DNA of 64,000 nucleotides from Arsenophonus endosymbiont of Aleurodicus floccissimus (GTDB taxonomy: Bacteria > Pseudomonadota > Gammaproteobacteria > Enterobacterales > Enterobacteriaceae). The notes beneath the pieces were generated by a model. That model searched no databases, was not told where the DNA came from, and saw nothing but the letters and a program-made list of their open reading frames with translations. Location of the stretch: positions 62,001 through 126,000 of the forward strand of contig NZ_OUND01000004.1 of assembly GCF_900343025.1 (NCBI RefSeq), written 5' to 3'. The translations under genes and the position numbers were made by a program. Positions 3,975 to 48,273 of this stretch are shown here, one piece after another (position 1 is the stretch's first letter; every line of letters begins with the position of its first letter).

Positions 3975-4709
3975 TTTAGCTCTATCAAATTAATGTTTTG
4001 TCGAAAGAAATGACCGATAGTGAAAAATTTATTTAGCAACTAAGTGTCAACAACATCCATCTTATTAATATCGTTTAAATACTGCTCGTTTAAATACTGA
4101 CACTCTTGCCTTGAAGCTATTATTGATAATATTTATCAATAAATTAATACTATTTGATTGGCAATGTCTTTTGTTAATTAACTAAATTCGTTGACACAGT
4201 TCACTCGATATCAATCTATAAGCTAATTATTTTTTCACTTTAGCACTGAAATATTATGCCCATAAGCCGATAATAACACTGCAATTAATTTAGGCATCAC
4301 TTTTTCTTAAAACTAAAAGCCAGCATTTAGGCTGGCTAAAACAACAGGGAAAACAACAAATTCGACAATAATTTATGTAATTATAATACAACGCAAAATT
4401 ATTAAAAATAATGAATATAAGCTTTAATGTTCAAATAACAACCATTCCATTAATTACTTTAATGTTAATAAAAATGTAATATGTGGTAATCTAAAAGTGA
4501 ATAATAAATAATTTTATTTTAAATAATAAAAAACAACCAATTACATAACAATGCTCTAGTTGAGCCAAGGAATTAATCAAAATATACAGGTAAACTATCT
4601 GATATAATCGATATTAAATATCACATTTAACTAAATATTAGGAATAAAAACATGGAGAACACCAAACAGTAACCATTATGTCAGCGCTATTTTGATTGGA
4701 CTTAACACA
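3975..4709. other. AT-rich region, no confident gene
   Basis: About 735 bases with no gene I can support. It contains an 11-bp direct repeat (TATTTAAACGA, two copies around 4070-4095) and a hairpin at 4318-4337. A minus-strand frame from 4297 has two stretches of about 30 open codons separated by stops, which could be an old remnant but could also be chance. Confidence 0.4.
4318..4337 (-). terminator. Possible minus-strand terminator hairpin
   Basis: 7-bp perfect stem AGCCAGC / GCTGGCT with a 6-base loop. Read on the minus strand it is followed by TTTAGTTTT, so it would work better in that direction. No gene ending here is recognised. Confidence 0.35.
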
Positions 4710-5951: not shown

Positions 5952-7184
5952 ATGCGCACATCCTCTTTGTCAAAGTCAGAACGTATATTCTTTCCGTTAA
6001 GTTTAACGTTATTTGAATTTAGCGTGTACATCGCTAACGATATGATCCAACCCACCATGTTAGAAGTGATAGCAAATTTCAATGCTGGCGTAAAATGGAT
6101 CCCCACCTCCATGACAGCATTTCTGGCCGGGGGCGTCTTCTTACAATGGTTTGTTTGGCCCATTATCAGACAGACGTGGTCGACGTCCAATTATGCTTAT
6201 TGGCGTCTTGTTCTTTATTATTAGCTGTTTAGCCATTTTGCTCGTTTCGAATATTGAGCAATTCATTGCCATGCGATTCTTACAAGGCATTGGGCTGTGC
6301 TTTATCGGTTCAGTCGGCTATGCAACTATTCAAGAGGCTTCCAACGAAACCGTCTGCGTCAAAATTATTGCACTAATGGCCAATGTGGCTTTAATAGCAT
6401 CATTACTGGGGCCATTGGCCGGCGCTACCTTAATCAATATCCTTCCCTGGCAAGGCATATTTATTATTTTTGCTATTTTAGCTTTGATCGCATTCGTCGG
6501 CTTATTCTTCTTCATGCCAGAAACCGTAACGCAAAAAGGGGAAACATTATCTTTTCCCCATTTATGGCGTGATTATAAACAAGTACTGAAGAATTAGCAT
6601 TTTATCAGCGGCGCACTTGCAATAGGATTTGCCGCCGTACCGCTACTAGCTTGGATAGCACTCTCCCCTGTTATTATCATAAGTGAACAACAACTCTCAA
6701 TGCTGATCTCTGGCTTATTACAAATACCAGTTTTCGGTGGATTAATTATTGATAACCTAACATTAAGCCGTCTAATTGGAAAAAAACTTTAGTTCAGTTA
6801 ATTAAATTTGGAGGTAAGCTGATAATCATTGGTCTGATAATAGCTACCAGTTCAATATTTTCCTCATCAGGCGCTTACCTATGAATAACTGCGGGTCTAG
6901 CTGTATACGCATTCGGGCTTGGTATGACGAACGCCGATTTAATCCGATTAATCTTATTTTCCAGTGATGTAAGCAGAGGCACTGTTTCTGCCGCTATGGG
7001 CATCATTAACATAGTAATATTTATTTTAGGCATAGAGCTTACCAAAATAGTTTATCTATGGAGAGATGAAGGTGCTTTTAATCTGCTAAATTTATTTTAC
7101 GGCTTATGCTGGCTGCTTTTAGCGACTTTTTTTACTTACAAATTCCCCCGAAAAGAAGAAGCATCCATGATTAAACAACTTTGA
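5952..7184 (+). pseudogene. MdtM/MdfA-like multidrug MFS exporter, broken
   Basis: A 12-helix major facilitator of the Cmr/MdfA/MdtM group, which exports drugs and cations by proton antiport. The N-terminus FFPLSLTLFEFSVYIANDMIQP and motif [13 protein letters not shown] are typical. The frame shifts near 6160, a TAG stops it at 6595-6597, and further damage lies at 6790-6890. The last fragment, FGLGMTNADLIRLILFSSDVSRGTVSAAMGIIN, is still clear. Total length equals a normal family member (about 410 codons), so the loss is by point changes, not deletion. Confidence 0.8.
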
Positions 7185-7208
7185 CAATTTCTTTCTTATC
7201 ATCCGAAC

Positions 7209-7231
7209 AGCCACGGCTCCCAGCTGTGGCT
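7209..7231 (+). terminator. Hairpin after the MFS remnant
   Basis: AGCCACGGCT pairs with AGCTGTGGCT over ten positions with one G-U pair, 25 bases after the MFS stop. No strong T run follows. Confidence 0.45.
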
Positions 7232-7536
7232 AATGTAACTTTTACATCCAACCATTCCCGCCAGCACTTTTATCTTAGCGCCACCTCTTTTACGATAGGC
7301 AGAGTGGATGCCGAATAATATGAGATTTACCCTTTATTTTATATTTAGTATTAAGAAAAATTTTATTGGTTAACTACCAAATAGTTTTTCACACTGGTAG
7401 TGTGAAAAGTTATATAAAAAATATAATACCCACATCTAGATAGAATTTTATTGCCTTTATACTAATGCTATTGAGTTACTATATAAGTTGCGTATTATTT
7501 ATTTAATAATTTTTATTTGCCTATAGAGCGTAAGTT
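7232..7536. other. Intergenic region, nothing recognised
   Basis: AT-rich sequence with no open frame of note and no repeat or RNA gene that I can identify. Confidence 0.5.
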
Positions 7537-18925: not shown

Positions 18926-19905
18926 ATGACTAACGTTACCTATCCTATTTTAAATCAAAAGATGAGGCACAGGCGTTTCTCATGACTGGAAGCGATATTG
19001 GATTTACTAAGTGGGATAATGAGTTAAAAGAAGCATTACTACGTGCGCCCCTTACATTTCGGCAATATAAAGTATTTGACGCCATTCACCGACTGACTAT
19101 AGGTTGGAATAAACAGTGTTCACACATTGAAAATACACGGATAGGGAAAATGACGGCGATCCATCATACGCATGTCAGTAAAGTTAGGAAAGAACTTAAA
19201 AACATGAATATGATATTTAAACACAATAATGAAGTATCCATAAATCAAAACCATCATGAGTGGAGTTTCAATAAAAGTTTAGCTGAACCAGCTAATAAAA
19301 TTAAGCCAAATCAGCAAGGTTTAGCCAAAATAGCTAATCATAATGAAACATTAGCCGAAACAGCTAATAAAAATGAGCCAAATCAGCTAACCATTACTGA
19401 ATTGGCTAATGGTTGCCAAAACAGCTACACATTAGCTAAAACGGCTAATATAAGTTTAACTAAATCAGCTAATGAGAGTTTAGCCGAATCAGCTAAACAT
19501 AAAAGAAAGGAAAGACAGGAAAGAAATATTTTAAAACATAAACTACCCCAAACCCCTTCTTTGGCAAAATCAAAATCATTTGACCCAAGCTCGGTAGACC
19601 TTCCCGCTTGGCTACTCAAATCAACCTGGGATTCCTGGGTGCAGTACCGCAAGGAAATCAACAAGCCGATTAAATCCCAGCAGACGGTGATTCAAGCTAT
19701 CAAGCTGCTAGGCAAGTGCCAAGACAATGGGCATCAGCCAGAAGAAATTATTAACGCTAGTATCGCCAACGGTTGGGGCAAGGACTCTTCGAGCCTAATC
19801 AACCAAGAAGAACTCAACAGACGAAATCCCACTCTGTCGCAGATAGCTTTGCTGACAAGGACTATGGGGAACAGCGGCTACCTGATTGGGCGAGGGAGTG
19901 TCTAA
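18926..19905 (+). pseudogene. Lambda O-like replication initiator, N-terminal frameshift
   Basis: The original start is at 18926 (AGGAG upstream); the reading shifts near 18945, after which YFKSKDEAQAFLMTG runs into a 307-codon open frame to 19905. DNELKEALLRAPLTFRQYKVFDAIHRLTIGWNKQCSHIENTRIGKMTAIHHTHVSKVRKELKNM is the winged-helix origin-binding domain. The middle is built of repeated LAE-x-AN units, encoded by an iteron array. The C-terminal part (WLLKSTWDSWVQYRKEINKPIKSQQTV) should contact the DnaC-like loader. An internal ATG at 18982 might still allow synthesis, but it lacks a ribosome site. Confidence 0.75.
19279..19496 (+). repeat. ori: Iteron array, candidate phage replication origin
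   Basis: Six 17-bp copies of a TTAGC-N7-GCTAA palindrome: 19279-19295, 19321-19337, 19351-19367, 19432-19448, 19456-19472 (TTAAC variant) and 19480-19496, with a degenerate copy at 19413. Consensus TTAGCYRAAWCAGCTAA. The last three are exactly 24 bases apart; all spacings are multiples of three because the array lies in coding sequence. Lambda's origin is likewise a set of iterons inside gene O. In the protein the repeats appear as LA(E/K)xAN units. Confidence 0.7.
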
Positions 19906-19918
19906 CGAAGGAGGGTCT

Positions 19919-20771
19919 ATGAACTACAGCACAGAAATTATTACCGTACGTCAAAAACTGGCAGACCTGAATGCGCCCCCTAAGCCACTGGAACACACGG
20001 TTTACGAGGAAAGAGAGGCCATCTGTGACAGGCACGGCGTATTCAAACAACGTTGCCGTAGGATGGCGCTTCACGGCAAAGGGATTGAGACAAAAACCGA
20101 ATGCCCTGCTTGCCTGAGCGAAAAATTATCTCAGTTGCAGCAAGCCTAAGCAGAGCATGAAAAACAGCGCAAGCGCAGCAAAATTAAAATTCTCATGGAT
20201 AACCTGAATCTGCCAGAGCGCTTTACTAATGTCACCCTGGATAACTACGAGGCAGTGAACCCAGATGCGGCCCGTTGCTTAAAATTTTGCAATGCCTATG
20301 CCCACCCATTGGCCTGAACGCCTTAAGCAGGGTGGCGGTTTGGGGATGTGTGGCAAGCCAGAAACCGGCAAGAATCACCTTGCCCTGTCGATTGCTAAGC
20401 ATGTTATCAACGAACACCAAAACTCAGCGCTATTCACGACCGTTTTGCGCATTGCCCGTTAGTTTAAATCGACCTGGAGCAAAAATGCAGAATGTTCAGA
20501 AGCTGAAGTTATTAAGCGCTATACGCAGCCTGACTTGCTCATCATTGACGAGGTGGGGGTTCAGTTCGATAGCGACGCGGAAAAGCTGATTTTATTCGAG
20601 GTCATCAACACGCGCGACGAGAGTATGAAGCCGACGATAATGATCAGCAATCTGGCCTTGAACAAACTGACTGGATTTATCGGAGAGCGTGTGATTGACC
20701 AGATGAACGACGGCGGAGGTTGTACTTTGACGTTCACGTGGAGTAGTTACCGTTCACGGATGGCTGCATAA
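19919..20771 (+). pseudogene. DnaC-like helicase loader ATPase, broken
   Basis: GGAGG precedes the ATG. A zinc-finger-like N-terminus (CDRHGVFKQRCRR...ECPAC) ends at TAA 20147-20149, continues in frame to NPDAARCLKFCNAYA, then shifts. The AAA+ core follows: GKPETGKNHLA (Walker A, normally GTGKTHLA), LLIIDEVGVQFDSDAEKLILFEVINTRDESMKPTIMISN (Walker B and sensor 1) and RVIDQMNDGGG (arginine finger region). Phage DnaC homologues load the host helicase with an O-like initiator, which is the gene just upstream. Confidence 0.8.
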
Positions 20772-21094: not shown

Positions 21095-22428
21095 GAGTCT
21101 GTAATGAATTTTGTGTAAATGGCTCCATCGCTTAACCGGAGATTCGTTCTCCATACATCAACATGAATTGGCTCATAGCCGGTTTCCAGTCTCTGATTGG
21201 CAAGGTCCATTTAGCCGAGATATTATGCAAGGCTAGATAGAGTAATTTTAGCACTGAGTCATCCGTTGGAAATATTCGTCGCGTTTTCGTTATCTTGCGC
21301 AATGAAGCATTTAACGACTCTATCGCATTGGTGGTATAGATAACCTTGCGGATCTCCGGCGGAAAGTCAAAAATGACGATGAGACGTTCCCAATTACTTC
21401 TCCACAACAGGCTGATCGTCGGGAACTGTTTATCCCATTTGGCGGCGAAGGCATCCAGGGTCTCTTCAGCGCCCTCTAGCGTTGCGGAACTATAAGATGG
21501 TGATGGTGCGGGAGGTCAGCAGCAACGGCTTTACCCTCTTTCCAGCCTACGTAGCGCAGCGAGTTCCGCACCTGATGCACCGATGCAGAGCTGTACCCGC
21601 GTATGCGGGTAAACAGCTTCAATGGCATCAGGAAAGCCTTTCAGGCCATCGCAGCGGGCGATGACGATGTCCTGTAGCCCAAGCCCCAAGCCCACTATTT
21701 TTCAGTTTTGTCATCACAGATAACCAGAACCTGGCCCCCTCGGTTTTGGCTATCCCATAGCCCCAGCAGCTCTTTTTCGCCCTGGCTGTTGACGCGGAGG
21801 GCCAGGTAAACAGACTTATTGGCCACGGCTCCACCATCCTGGCTTTTAAACAACAATACAGTCAAGGTAAACAATGGGATAAAGCGCATCCAGCGGCCGT
21901 TGCTGCCAGCGCTTAACTTCATCCATCACGGCATTGGTGACTTGAGAAATGAAGCTAGCGGAAACATCTACCCCGTATACTTCTTTAAAGTGTGCCTGAA
22001 TATAACGGGTTGATAACCCTCTAGAATATATAGAAATAATGCGGTCATCGAAGCCGTTAAGCTGTTTTTCGTTCTTACCGATCAGTGTCGGCTCAAAGGT
22101 ACTGTTGCGGTCGCGCGGAATATCGAGCTCGATCTCCCTATTTTGGCTACGTACGCTCTTGGATGTCTTGCCATTGCGGGAGTTGCCTGAATTATTACCT
22201 TGCCGGGTCATGCTTGGCATACCCAAGGTGCATCTCCATCTCAGCTTCAAGAACCTGTTACACCAGTCTTTTAATCAGTACCTTGAGTAGGCCTGATTCA
22301 CCCAGCAGATCCTAAGGGGAATGACAATCTTGAAGCAGTTGGTCAATAAGTTCGTTGCTGATAGGCATTTTGTTGTCCTTTGAAGGTTTTCCTCAAAATG
22401 CCATTTACACAGATATTTTTACACTCTC
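21095..22428. mobile_element. IS256-family insertion sequence, 1334 bp
   Basis: Imperfect 29-bp inverted ends: left 21095-21123 and right 22400-22428, sharing the inner GTGTAAATGGC and the outer GAG. The element is flanked by an 8-bp target duplication GCATGATT / TCATGATT (7 of 8 identical) at 21087-21094 and 22429-22436. Size, end type and duplication length are as expected for IS256. Its only gene is a broken transposase on the minus strand. Confidence 0.85.
21132..22368 (-). pseudogene. IS256-family (mutator-type) transposase, broken
   Basis: On the minus strand MPISNELIDQLLQDC starts the gene; stops follow at codons 19 and 37. NSRNGKTSKSVRSQNREIELDIPRDRNSTFEP and FISQVTNAVMDEVKRWQQRPLDALYPIVYLDC carry the first catalytic Asp, GLWDSQNRGG and the D-containing middle are in two other frames, and TNAIESLNASLRK carries the catalytic Glu. 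At least two stops and three frame changes: the element cannot move by itself. Confidence 0.85.
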
Positions 22429-25123: not shown

Positions 25124-25693
25124 ATGTCTCCTGAATTTCGTAAACGATTGATAACAGTGACGGCAGGCGGCGTATTAGCACTGGCTGCCGTCTTGGTGCA
25201 GTGGCACGAAGGTAAGCTCTATAAGCTCTATAAGCTCTATAAGCTCTATAAGCTCTATAAGCTCTATAAGCTCTATAAGCTCTATAAGCTCTATAAGCTC
25301 TATCGTGATGGTGGTGGTGTGCTCACTGTTTGTCACGGTCATACGGGCAAGGACGTTACACAGGGAGAAATCTATAGCGAAGAAGAATGTAACGAGTTGA
25401 TGAAACGGGATTTGTAAGTAGCACGCTCCACCGTTGAACATTATGTCACTGTTCCGCTCTCCGATTTGCAGAAAGCCACTTTAATTTCATTTGTTTACAA
25501 TATTGGCAGTGGGGCTTTTGCCAATTCAACGCTACTCAAAAAGTTGAACGCCGGAGATATTCACGGCGCTTGTGATCAGATGTGCCGATGGAAATACGAT
25601 GAAGGAAAGGTATCAAACGTGCTGATTAATCGCAGAGAGGTGGAATGGGAACTTTGTTTAAATCCAGATTTACTAATCAATCCAACTCAATGA
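25124..25693 (+). pseudogene. SAR-type phage lysozyme (GH24), repeat-expanded and nonsense-broken
   Basis: KRLITVTAGGVLALAAVLVQ is the signal-arrest-release anchor of P21-like endolysins. The catalytic Glu is in WHEG; normally about seven residues separate it from RDGGGVLTVCHGHTGKD. Here ten KLY units lie between them, from a 9-bp tandem repeat. The frame is cut by TAA at 25415-25417 after MKRDL and continues as VARSTVEHYVTVPLSDLQKATLISFVYNIGSGAFANSTLLKKLN...RREVEWELCL to the normal end. The nonsense codon removes more than half of the domain. Confidence 0.85.
25214..25303 (+). repeat. Ten perfect tandem copies of a 9-bp unit (AAGCTCTAT)
   Basis: 90 bases, ten identical copies, encoding (KLY)10 inside the lysozyme gene. 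Homologues have a single equivalent (roughly RYKPYRDG), so the array arose by slipped-strand or unequal expansion. Identity of all copies points to a recent event, probably after the gene was already inactive. Confidence 0.95.
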
Positions 25694-29829: not shown

Positions 29830-29860
29830 CACCCGCAGCAAGAACCAAGGTGAGGACACA

Positions 29861-31613
29861 TGACAAAGAAAAAAAACGGACGAACTCGACGAATTCTTCG
29901 CTCACTGATTTGCCCACCGACTATGCCACTCAAGTTATTTCAGGCGTAGAGATTGCCGGGCCTGATATTCGTCATGCCTGTCAACGTCACTTGCGAGATT
30001 TATCGACGGGTAATACGCGGGGTCTGTTGTGGGATGTCGGATCCGCACAGCGTGCCATCCGTTTTTTTTCCAACGTATTGCAATTGAACGGCGGTATCTA
30101 TGAAGGCAAGCCGTTTAATTTACTCCCTTGGCAGTGTTTTATCGTTGGCACCCTTTTTAGCTGGAGAAACAACGAAGGACAACGCCGTTTTCGGATGGCC
30201 TACGTTGAAGCTGGAAAAGGATCAGGGAAATCGCCACTGGCGGCGGGGATAGGGCTCTATTGTCTGGTTGCCGATAATGAAGCGCGAGCCGAAGTCTACG
30301 CCGCTGCCACCAAAAAAGACCAGGAGATGATCCTGTTTCGTGACGCCGTCGCGATGATAGACCAATCGCCAAAGCTGGCCGAACGTATCCAGAAATCCGG
30401 TGGGGCGGGTAAGGAATGGAATCTGGCATTTTTACAAGCCCGTGCTTTTTTCCGGCCTATCAGTGCCGATGATGGGCAATCCGGCCCGCGTCCTCACTGT
30501 GCCTTGATTGACGAAATTCACGAACACAAAAGTAATCAGATCGTTGAAATGATGCGGGCGGGCACAAAAGAAAGGCCGCCAACAGGCATTGATTTTCATG
30601 ATCACCAATAGCGGCCATAACAAAACCAGTGTGTGTTACGACTATCACGAATACGGACGTAAAGTGGCAGAGGGCAGCATTGAAGATGATAGCTTTTTCG
30701 CATTCATCTGTTCGCTGGACGAAGGCAATGACCCCTTTAAAGATAGCGGTTGTTGGAAAAAAACGAATCCCTCATTATAGCATACGTTCAGCGAACGCTA
30801 TCTACAGGAGCAAGTCACGCAAGCCCGTGGTATGCCAGCCAAAGAGAGGCCTGGTTCGTCGTCTCAATTTCTGTCAGTGGGTCGATGCCGAGAATCCCTG
30901 GATTAATAGTGATAGCTGGATGGCGGGTGAGGAAGCCTCGCTGGATTTAGGAGCACTAGCAAGCTCACCCTGCTATGGTGGCCTGGATTTATCCGGCAAG
31001 CAGAATTTAACGGCACTGGCGCTTTATTGGCCGGAAGAAAAAGTGGCTTATGTCGAGTTCTGGACACCTAAAGACACCTTACTGGAACGTGCTAGGGTAA
31101 ACAGAGTGCCTTACGATGCCTGGTTGCGAGAGGGTTATATTAACGCCACGCCAGGGAATGAGATTAATCTGGGTTTTGTTGCTCAACGAATAGCCGAATT
31201 ATCCGCACGATATACCCTCAATCGTATTGCCTACGATGCGTATCATCTTGATTATTTACAGCCAGAACTGGAAAACGAAGGGGTGAATACGGTATTAACG
31301 CCGCACGGACAAGGCTTTGGAAAATCGAAACAATCCGGACTTTGGATGCCACGATCCATTGAATTGCTTGAGCAGCGTCTTCTCGGTGGTGAATTACTCA
31401 TTGATTTTAATCCCTGCCTACGCTGGAAGGCCGCGAATACCGTTATTGAAGAAGATAAAAACGGCAATCGTGTTTTTAGCAAACGCCGTAGTAACCGGGT
31501 GCATTGACGGGGTTGTTGCGCTGGCGATGGCAATCGGGGCCGCCGAGGTTGTTGAGGAAGAAAGCGGAGATCTGGTTGGCTTTTTAACAAATCCGATTAT
31601 GTTAGGGCTGTAG
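29861..31613 (+). pseudogene. Terminase large subunit, HK97/P27 type, broken
   Basis: ATP-driven packaging motor and nuclease. LPWQCFIVGTLFSW, AYVEAGKGSGKSPLAAGIG (Walker A), HCALIDEIHEHK (Walker B), then a frameshift near 30585, ITNSGHNKTSVCYDYHEYG, another near 30780-30870, ASSPCYGGLDLSGKQNLTALALYW (nuclease Asp), GFGKSKQSGLWMPRSIELLEQRLLGG and a final shift near 31500 before VVEEESGDLVGFLTNPIML. Normal length, about 580 codons. Stop overlaps the portal GTG. Confidence 0.85.
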
Positions 31614-32941
31614 TGAAAAAACATAAATCTCCTGGCAAAATTAAAAGCGCGGTGCACACCTAGCTAGGTGTGCCGCAGAATTTAACGGATACGCTGTCAT
31701 CGTTTCATGACTATAGCCAAAGTAAGAGTGGGCAAGTGGTGACAACGGATAAAGCCCTACAACTTTCTGCGGTCTGGGCGTATGTGCGTCTGTTGAGTGA
31801 ATCGATATCCACGTTACCGCTCAAACTCTATCACCGTGAGTCAGATGGTTCACGCAGCCTCGCACAGCAACACCCTGCTTATCCTGTCTTGTGTCGTCGT
31901 CCTAACCTGGAAATGACCCCTTCGCGTTTTATCTAAATGATTGTTGCCAGCTTGTGTTTACGTGGTAATGCCTTTGTTGAAAAAAAGAAGGTCGGTCAGC
32001 GTCTGGTCTCCCTCGTCCCACTATTACCCCAATACATCACCGTTAAACGCCGTGATAACGGGCGACTGGAATACCACTATACCAACGACACCAAACCGGG
32101 TTATTCCTCATTAAAACCCCGAGTTATTGCAGATAATGACATGATGCGCATACGGGGGTTCGGATTAGACGGTATTTCCGGCATAATGCCGTTGAAAACG
32201 GGTCGTGAGGTGTTTGGCTACGCGATGTCGCTCGAAATAACGGCAGATCGGTATTTCCAGAAAAGCATGTCGGCATCCGGTTTTATCTCGTTCGATAAGT
32301 TGTTGTCAGAAGAACAACGTGAAAGATTTAATAAGCATCTTGAAAACTTTGCTGGCTCAGAAAATATCGGCAAAGTGATGTTGCTAGAAGCCGGAATGAA
32401 ATTTAATGGTATCCCCCTCGATCCACAAACCTCACAAATGTTGGAAAGCAGCGATCATAACGTCGAAGAAATCTGCCGTTGGTATCGCGTTCCGCCGTTT
32501 ATGGTCGGTCATATTACGAAATAAAGCAGTTAGGCTTCTAGCGTAGAAGGGATGAACCTGATTTTCTTGACCAATACATTACGGCCCTTACTGGTCAATA
32601 TTGAATAGGAAATTGCCCGCTGTCTGTTGGATAATAACAAGGATTATTTTGCGGAATTTTCTGTTAAAGGACTGCTCAGAACCGATAGCACGGGTCGAGC
32701 AGCCTATTACACTACTGCGCTACAAAATGGCTGGATGAGTCGCAATGATGTGAGGAGACTGGAAAATCTGCCGCCGATTGATGGCGAAGACCTGTATACT
32801 GTTCAGTTAAACCTCACGCCCCTCGATCAACTGGGGCAGGCGAATGACAGCGAAAAAGCACGAGTTGCTCTAAATGCCTGGTTATTTCCTGAAAAATCCT
32901 CATCTCATCACCCGACTGGCCCCCAGCAAGAAACAAAATAA
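31613..32941 (+). pseudogene. HK97-family portal protein, five in-frame stops, no frameshift
   Basis: The GTG start overlaps the terminase stop. One frame spans the whole gene, interrupted at 31661 (TAG), 31934 (TAA), 32522 (TAA), 32531 (TAG) and 32606 (TAG). ALQLSAVWAYVRLLSESISTLPLKLY, LRGNAFVEKKK, LSLEITADRYFQK-like text and EEICRWYRVPPFMVGHITK are typical. Expected residues at the last three stops are S, W and Q. Length is about 443 codons, slightly longer than HK97 portal. The portal forms the head vertex through which DNA passes. Confidence 0.85.
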
Positions 32942-48196: not shown

Positions 48197-48273
48197 TGGC
48201 GCGCCCTGTAGGATTCGAACCTACGACCAACGGCTTAGAAGGCCGTTGCTCTATCCAGCTGAGCTAAGGGCGC
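48197..48273 (-). tRNA. argU: tRNA-Arg (anticodon UCU)
   Basis: 77 bases on the minus strand, GCGCCCTTAGCTCAG at the 5' end, anticodon TCT in CTTCTAA, T-loop GGTTCGAATCC, and encoded CCA. All four stems pair. It reads rare AGA/AGG codons. The prophage sits at its 3' end; the first 48 bases in window coordinates (48197-48244) are the attR copy of the direct repeat. In E. coli argU is also next to folD and is also a phage site (DLP12). Confidence 0.97.

Follow-up and report, generated by a model that had tools for sequence, protein, structure and literature searches.

Where would a prophage in the genome of the Arsenophonus endosymbiont of Aleurodicus floccissimus start to replicate its DNA, and how would its initiator protein recognise that place? 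The question is raised by a stretch of 64,000 nucleotides (assembly GCF_900343025.1, contig NZ_OUND01000004.1, positions 62,001 to 126,000 of the forward strand), referred to here as the window, in which a gene for an O-type replication initiator carries within its coding sequence an array of palindromic repeats (iterons) of the form TTAGC-N7-GCTAA. An earlier inspection of the letters alone (the sequence-only reading) had proposed this array as the probable origin of an uncharacterised SfV-like phage. Our analysis indicates that the array is very probably the replication origin of a prophage of the lambda/P22 type, lying inside its own initiator gene. The features computed here that bear on this are the DNA-binding domain of the initiator, the sites, the conservation of their DNA, the association of the recognition helix with the iterons, an A-rich flank, and the position of the gene before that of a helicase loader.

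Iterons within the initiator gene

The open reading frame (ORF) of the initiator spans 18982..19905 on the forward strand (307 codons from ATG). Its product matched the family PF04492 (Phage_rep_O) with residues 5-94 (profile positions 6-95 of 95, E 1.1e-19, 71.2 bits, cut-off 28.7), and phrog_678 (E 4e-38), which PHROGs labels as replication initiation O-like. Residues 1-94 (18982..19263, forward strand) form a winged-helix DNA-binding domain in an AlphaFold model, with a mean predicted local distance difference test score (pLDDT) of 84.8, helices at residues 51-58 and 62-74, and strands at 78-81 and 84-87. The HHTHV codons (residues 61-65; 19162..19176, forward strand) mark the start of the predicted recognition helix, 62-74.

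A pattern scan of the window located five exact iterons just past this domain, all in reading frame 0 (19279..19295, 19321..19337, 19351..19367, 19432..19448 and 19480..19496). Two more deviate by one mismatch: that at 19374..19390 (frame 2) in arm base 2, where an exact arm would create an in-frame TAG, and that at 19456..19472 in arm base 4, with no stop codon to force the mismatch. Interspersed with these seven strong sites of the region 19279-19496 are three degenerate copies with three mismatches each (19302..19318, frame 2; 19393..19409, frame 0; 19412..19428, frame 1, with the next site 20 bases on), giving about ten units in total, whose neighbours are 19 to 30 bases apart. Thus, the array that had been reported is real, but instead of six copies it holds seven at no more than one mismatch and three degenerate ones. 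The successive spacings of the strong sites are 42, 30, 23, 58, 24 and 24, the last three sites being 24 bases apart, as had been noticed before.

The array stood above both controls applied to the gene. No exact site occurred in 1000 Markov-1 copies of it, and 1000 synonymous-codon shuffles that kept the protein contained 0.90 exact sites on average and four at most, so that none reached the observed five. When two mismatches were allowed over the whole window, the 46 sites found were not above chance (mean 38.8; 10 of 100 shuffles as high). The exact iteron occurs at 17 places in the whole 3.0 Mb genome, five of them in the array, and a reversed control pattern at two. A 69-base block at 19270 recurs at 19342 with 74% identity, and both copies align to a single block of the related locus L008, so that a duplicated block of about 70 bp is the probable source of part of the array. 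L008 and another relative, L012, have five sites each.

The array is followed by an A-rich stretch (19497..19570), a candidate unwinding element; 60-base windows starting at 19480-19520 have a GC content of 28-32% and an AT skew of 0.30-0.51. Across 204 O genes, the 60-base segment that follows the array had an A fraction of 0.49 (gene mean 0.31) and an AT fraction of 0.62 (gene mean 0.52). In lambda, O protein bound to the iterons forms the O-some, and an AT-rich stretch is needed for opening (PMC7466680, PMC3349717). By analogy with lambda, O dimers would bind to each 17-bp dyad with one recognition helix per TTAGC half-site, and the bound dimers would assemble into a nucleoprotein complex. 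Opening of the A-rich stretch (19497-19570) would follow, and host DnaB helicase would be delivered by the DnaC-like loader that is encoded next.

The same arrangement could be read as a set of operators serving a transcription regulator or the autoregulation of O, without an origin. The dyads do adjoin a winged helix, a general fold common to many repressors. However, they lie deep in a coding sequence, just past the domain, where the iterons of lambda and the rep_origin of P22 are annotated. Moreover, the gene that follows carries a replication-type label (helicase, DnaC-like, P or DNA replication protein) in 8 of 10 annotated phage records; it is called 'primosomal protein' in one of the remaining records and 'hypothetical protein' in the other. 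We therefore regard the operator explanation as very improbable.

Several observations weigh against a replication origin all the same. Foldseek matches of the domain model were weak (best E 0.013, none at E <= 0.001), CRP/FNR- or MarR-family proteins being the majority among the 50 matches listed; a search by sequence for a solved O structure likewise returned weak matches alone. An AT-rich region had been expected after the array. The stretch present there is A-rich on one strand, but another part of the gene, 19180-19259 (23% GC), is richer in AT. Of the 204 O genes, 106 have the segment past the array in the top 5% for A, but no more than 75 have it in the top 10% for AT. The spacing of the strong sites in the window differs from the 20-24-23 usual in the family, although this spacing is common rather than defining (Gifsy-2-type genes have 22 and 39); the other family features, namely a Phage_rep_O domain, dyad iterons just after it, an A-rich flank and an adjacent loader gene, are present. 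Finally, that loader gene is broken and O is disturbed, which makes present function doubtful. Taken together with these points, the O-type domain (PF04492, phrog_678), the comparison of iterons and the A-rich stretch still bear out the proposal of a probable origin in an O-type initiator, with iterons unlike those of lambda.

As to the present state of the locus, the DnaC-like helicase loader survives as broken pieces (20292..20771, forward strand), two separate ORFs of which matched phrog_50 and phrog_3277; at the same position, the relatives L005 and L006 have a single long ORF. The initiator is disturbed at both ends as compared with relatives: the upstream start that they use is not in frame here, and the C-terminus of O is encoded in a different frame from that in L005 and L008. 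Hence, the sequence-only reading was right to call the gene frameshifted as far as the ends are concerned, but domain and array share a single frame that stays open for 307 codons. With a broken loader and an O gene disturbed at both ends, the system in this genome is probably dead, although its DNA-reading domain and sites can still be read, and open copies of O exist in relatives. Broken transposase-like pieces, which we take to resemble an IS256-type transposase, adjoin the replication genes at 21132-22250 on the reverse strand. In L008, an ORF of 405 amino acids and unclear nature (6094-7311) adjoins the O and loader genes on the opposite strand.

What the relatives conserve

An array inside a gene may owe its regularity to the protein. 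On this explanation, a linker built of repeated LAxxAN units would have left the repeats in the DNA as a by-product, and they would not act as DNA sites. It is true that the peptides encoded by frame-0 sites resemble one another, and, as mentioned, synonymous shuffles of the same protein still average 0.9 exact sites. The two possibilities can be separated in 83 distinct linkers of the TTAGC class, whose genes were selected by protein search. A pair of in-frame sites 24 bases apart is present in 82 of them (best pair, with two mismatches or fewer in all), its members being exact in 80/82 and 81/82. The consensus was thus found at the same place in related O genes, as the earlier reading had suggested looking for. 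The outer sites, defined by position alone at -20 and +47, are exact in none of the 82, yet lie within one mismatch in 75 and 71 of them, respectively; their reading frames differ from that of the central pair. The palindrome was found in all three reading frames, and the sites in frames 1 and 2 encode other peptides than those in frame 0.

The mismatches of the outer sites lie mostly where a perfect copy would bring a stop codon. A perfect site in frame 1 contains an in-frame TAA (bases 15-17), and one in frame 2 an in-frame TAG (bases 2-4). Among the distinct 17-mers of site 1, mismatches fell on base 15 (23), bases 16-17 (3) and elsewhere (5), and among those of site 4 on bases 2-4 (13) and elsewhere (1); these counts are confined to 17-mers with up to three mismatches, which leaves out 2 of 28 at site 1 and 6 of 18 at site 4. 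Nearly all other bases are kept, and the outer sites are never perfect because a perfect copy in an open frame would be a stop codon. In the TTACC class (six genes), in which frame 2 brings no stop, 11 of the 13 frame-2 sites with one mismatch or none are exact. As these sites are exact, we do not favour the idea that a built-in weak outer site is a functional demand.

Codon choice points the same way. Leucine in distinct LAxxA units is encoded by TTA in 65 of 66 cases, while TTA makes up 12% of the leucine codons in the rest of these genes; the alanine codon within the arm (the second) is GCT in 66/66, and the one outside the arm (the first) in 30/66 (Fisher 4e-14). The TTAGC class is itself defined by the arms, but with 84 of 85 genes of the relevant helix type (H-x-T-H, see below) falling into it, the effect of this selection is small. 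Two observations run counter to the simple stop rule: in the TTTAC class a stop codon forces the mismatch at site 4 in 3/3 distinct 17-mers but not that at site 1 (base 3), and the 6 of 18 distinct site-4 17-mers of the TTAGC class with more than three mismatches have no site left.

A by-product of the linker would not be expected to persist in frames 1 and 2 despite the different peptides read there, nor to fix the alanine codon in the arm while leaving the one outside it free, nor to place its mismatches mostly at would-be stops and remain exact in the frame-2 sites of the TTACC class. Homologues that keep the protein repeats without a conserved palindrome had been named as a refutation of the proposed origin, and peptide repeats with random codons would be expected of a by-product; the opposite was seen in both respects. 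We consider the by-product explanation exceedingly improbable. On this sequence evidence, the conserved thing is the DNA site, and the LAxxAN peptides follow from it; the claim that protein repeats and DNA site had evolved together does not hold, as sites in the other frames encode other peptides. The stop-codon pattern accounts for imperfect iterons and suggests that spacing is held more tightly than the perfection of the sites.

Recognition helices, iteron arms and their exchange

In 150 distinct O genes, at loci found by protein, a TTAGC array (at least two sites within one mismatch; the weakest array, that of L023, scores 3) was present in 84 of 85 genes whose helix has the form H-x-T-H, and in 0 of 65 others. 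The exception, L005 (Candidatus Symbiopectobacterium endolongispinus), has kept one exact site (4298-4314) while its O gene is otherwise open, a state that recombination between repeats would produce. The 65 other genes comprise TTTAC (38), TCCC-type (9), GTCTC (7) and TTACC (6) arrays, four singletons, and L255, which lacks an array. Class proportions mean nothing here, because the loci came from queries that included TTAGC-class proteins. A second set, drawn from genomes with several prophages and partly overlapping the first, had an O-domain ORF in 41 of 44 loci (all but L355, L370 and L376) and an array model in 40, of which that of L359 was no better than its shuffles. TTAGC again accompanied H-x-T-H in 8/8 genes and none of the 33 others, and new pairs appeared, such as PRQKV with GTCAC. 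These counts are not independent, because the genes are related; on a helix-masked tree, from which one row was dropped, three independent contrasts on supported branches were all concordant (p 0.25), too few to establish independence. The link between helix and iteron is thus suggested by many related genes together with exchanged pairs.

An apparent exchange involves L006, from the Arsenophonus endosymbiont of Aphis craccivora. Its DNA is homologous to the window up to 19113 and again from 19502, the flanking blocks being 80% and 87% identical. The stretch between (19113..19502, forward strand), which holds helix-turn-helix, wing and array, differs as a unit and in L006 carries the helix ERVNV and TGTGG/CCACA iterons. 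This suggests that phages may change replication specificity by exchanging one cassette of about 390 bp. In L255, too, homology with the window is lost at 19113; this further O gene matches a locus of the genome from which the window comes (L340, also L350; C7:177865-178191). Where the window has HHTHV, it has the helix HHAHI, and its one dyad, GTGTAGC-N7-GCTACAC, is longer; its array may have collapsed and its specificity changed. Two O genes occur in genome G174, one with AIHHTHV and TTAGC, the other with LLPHKC and TTACC. A coarse sorting by motifs, which left 82 of 144 unsorted, distinguished at least three types of C-terminal half joined to TTAGC arrays.

We consider it rather more probable than its opposite that helix-turn-helix, wing and array constitute one swappable cassette with a readable code between helix and arm, within which the genetic code limits the perfect sites. 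The code would comprise the pairs H-x-T-H/TTAGC, SRQNV/GTCTC, PRQKV/GTCAC, PHKC/TTACC, TKC/TTTAC and VK(R/H)/TCCCT; because sites must also be translated, the genetic code decides which of them can be perfect. In the titles and abstract beginnings of open-access literature, neither a helix-iteron catalogue nor the stop-codon constraint was found among the matches listed. That different lambdoid phages have different iterons is already in print, and origins inside initiator genes have been studied since lambda; there is reportedly also older work on lambda/phi80/82 hybrids. A table that pairs helix and DNA site across many phages allows the origin of a newly found phage to be guessed from one heptapeptide.

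Another possible role of the remnant array is that of a decoy, with which the host would sequester the O protein of any incoming phage that shares its specificity. Ectopic lambda origins arrest lambda (PMC4488673), and plasmids with oop and the lambda iterons silence lambda replication (PMC3349717); the array here, with its ten or so units, is a large one. On the other hand, neither oop nor the origin alone explains the silencing (PMC3349717), and one chromosomal array offers few sites. The array of L005 is down to one site, and that of L255/L350 has decayed. The sequence-only reading had pointed out that the arms are kept although the gene is frameshifted; this does not attest continuing selection, as the open-frame genes L008 and L012 have 3/5 exact sites against 5/7 here and L005 and L255 have nearly lost the array, and no sign of selection after the frameshift was found. 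In addition, coresident prophages do not avoid a common class: 5 of 21 pairs shared one (shuffled mean 2.3, P(at least 5) 0.06). The decoy explanation is therefore very unlikely in our judgement, and we retain that of an origin within its initiator gene. The pair test also led us to reject incompatibility, that is, avoidance of a shared iteron class by prophages of one genome. In this test, site registers were merged by hand (TGTCT-N9 as GTCTC, ATCCC as TCCCT) and the L359 entry is weak; two of the five same-class pairs (G069, G260) resemble copies of one prophage, with identical values except for place.

Concerning the prophage around the origin, families of tail sheath, baseplate and tape measure proteins are present in the window. 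The sheath is 62.8-64.0% identical to those of SfII and ST64B (among the best 15 of 88 matches, which do not include SfV), phages presumably akin to SfV. Thus, 'SfV-like' describes the contractile tail but not the replication module: no TTAGC site within one mismatch was found in the annotated replication protein gene of SfV (orf39), and by eye the protein of this gene is unlike the O domain. At 29850-32524, matches to the terminase large subunit are split over two ORFs and the portal match is partial, which looks as if the packaging genes were broken too; a dead origin is most likely. A run of Leu-Tyr-Lys triplets, encoded by a 9-base tandem repeat (25214-25320), lies in a short ORF (25124-25417) that we take to be a possible lysis-type gene. 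Several Klebsiella prophage records contain, close to their beginning, a sequence similar to the tRNA-Arg (TCT) at 48197-48273, which is a candidate attachment site.

Comparison with known systems

The iteron is not peculiar to this phage. Viral contigs contained at least 120 stretches with two tandem TTAGC sites, and 112 of 120 lay inside an ORF with an O domain. By eye, seven of the other eight look like O linkers truncated by a break of frame or at the edge of a contig, and the eighth (L095) like an ORF of RelE type. Named phages with TTAGC iterons are phiES15, ST104, PSTCR7lys, RCIP0114, vB_YenM_06.16-1 and HK446. Among 210 distinct O genes, counted after the removal of seven hits with an incomplete domain, the spacing 20-24-23 was found in 99 TTAGC and 36 TTTAC genes. 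A search for PF04492 in 369 genomes of the class matched seven, the genome of the window included, and DNA searches of phages and plasmids with parts of the window found little, with Arsenophonus apicola plasmids among the named hits. More distant O-domain genes, L338 and L339 (frames of 609 and 347 codons), have other dyads, GGGTG-N9-CACCC with the helix ERSNV and ACACC-N5-GGTGT with RRQHC, respectively.

In its layout, the locus resembles gene O and the origin of lambda, where dyad iterons lie within the initiator gene just past the domain and an AT-rich stretch comes next (PMC3349717). Lambda's four annotated iterons also share the spacing 20-24-23 with many TTAGC genes. Unlike lambda, with arms TCCCT/AGGGA and the helix PVKRC, the window has TTAGC/GCTAA and HHTHV, a different spacing, and about ten units instead of four. 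In P22, the rep_origin is annotated in the same part of gene 18 and the class spacing is 20-24-23, but P22-class iterons are TTTAC/GTAAA with the helix APTKC, and no TTAGC-N7-GCTAA site within two mismatches was found in P22. The P22-like phage ST104 has HHTHV and TTAGC instead of the P22-class pair.

Replication protein O of Escherichia phage HK446 shares with the window the HHTHV helix and TTAGC-N7-GCTAA sites, spaced 20-24-23 in frames 1, 0, 0 and 2. Unlike the window, HK446 has four sites and, by eye, a different C-terminal half, followed by a gene annotated as replication protein P. The O protein of Cronobacter phage phiES15, the best-ranked annotated phage protein (39.6% identity over 85%), also goes with TTAGC iterons, but has five sites, compared with seven and three degenerate ones in the window, and is likewise followed by a gene annotated P. 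Enlarged arrays of six iterons in gene O, together with O dimers, are described for the Shiga-toxin phages P27 and 933W (PMC7466680), although their iterons are of the lambda type in sequence. The array in the window is thus an enlarged form, with about ten units against the four of lambda and HK446.
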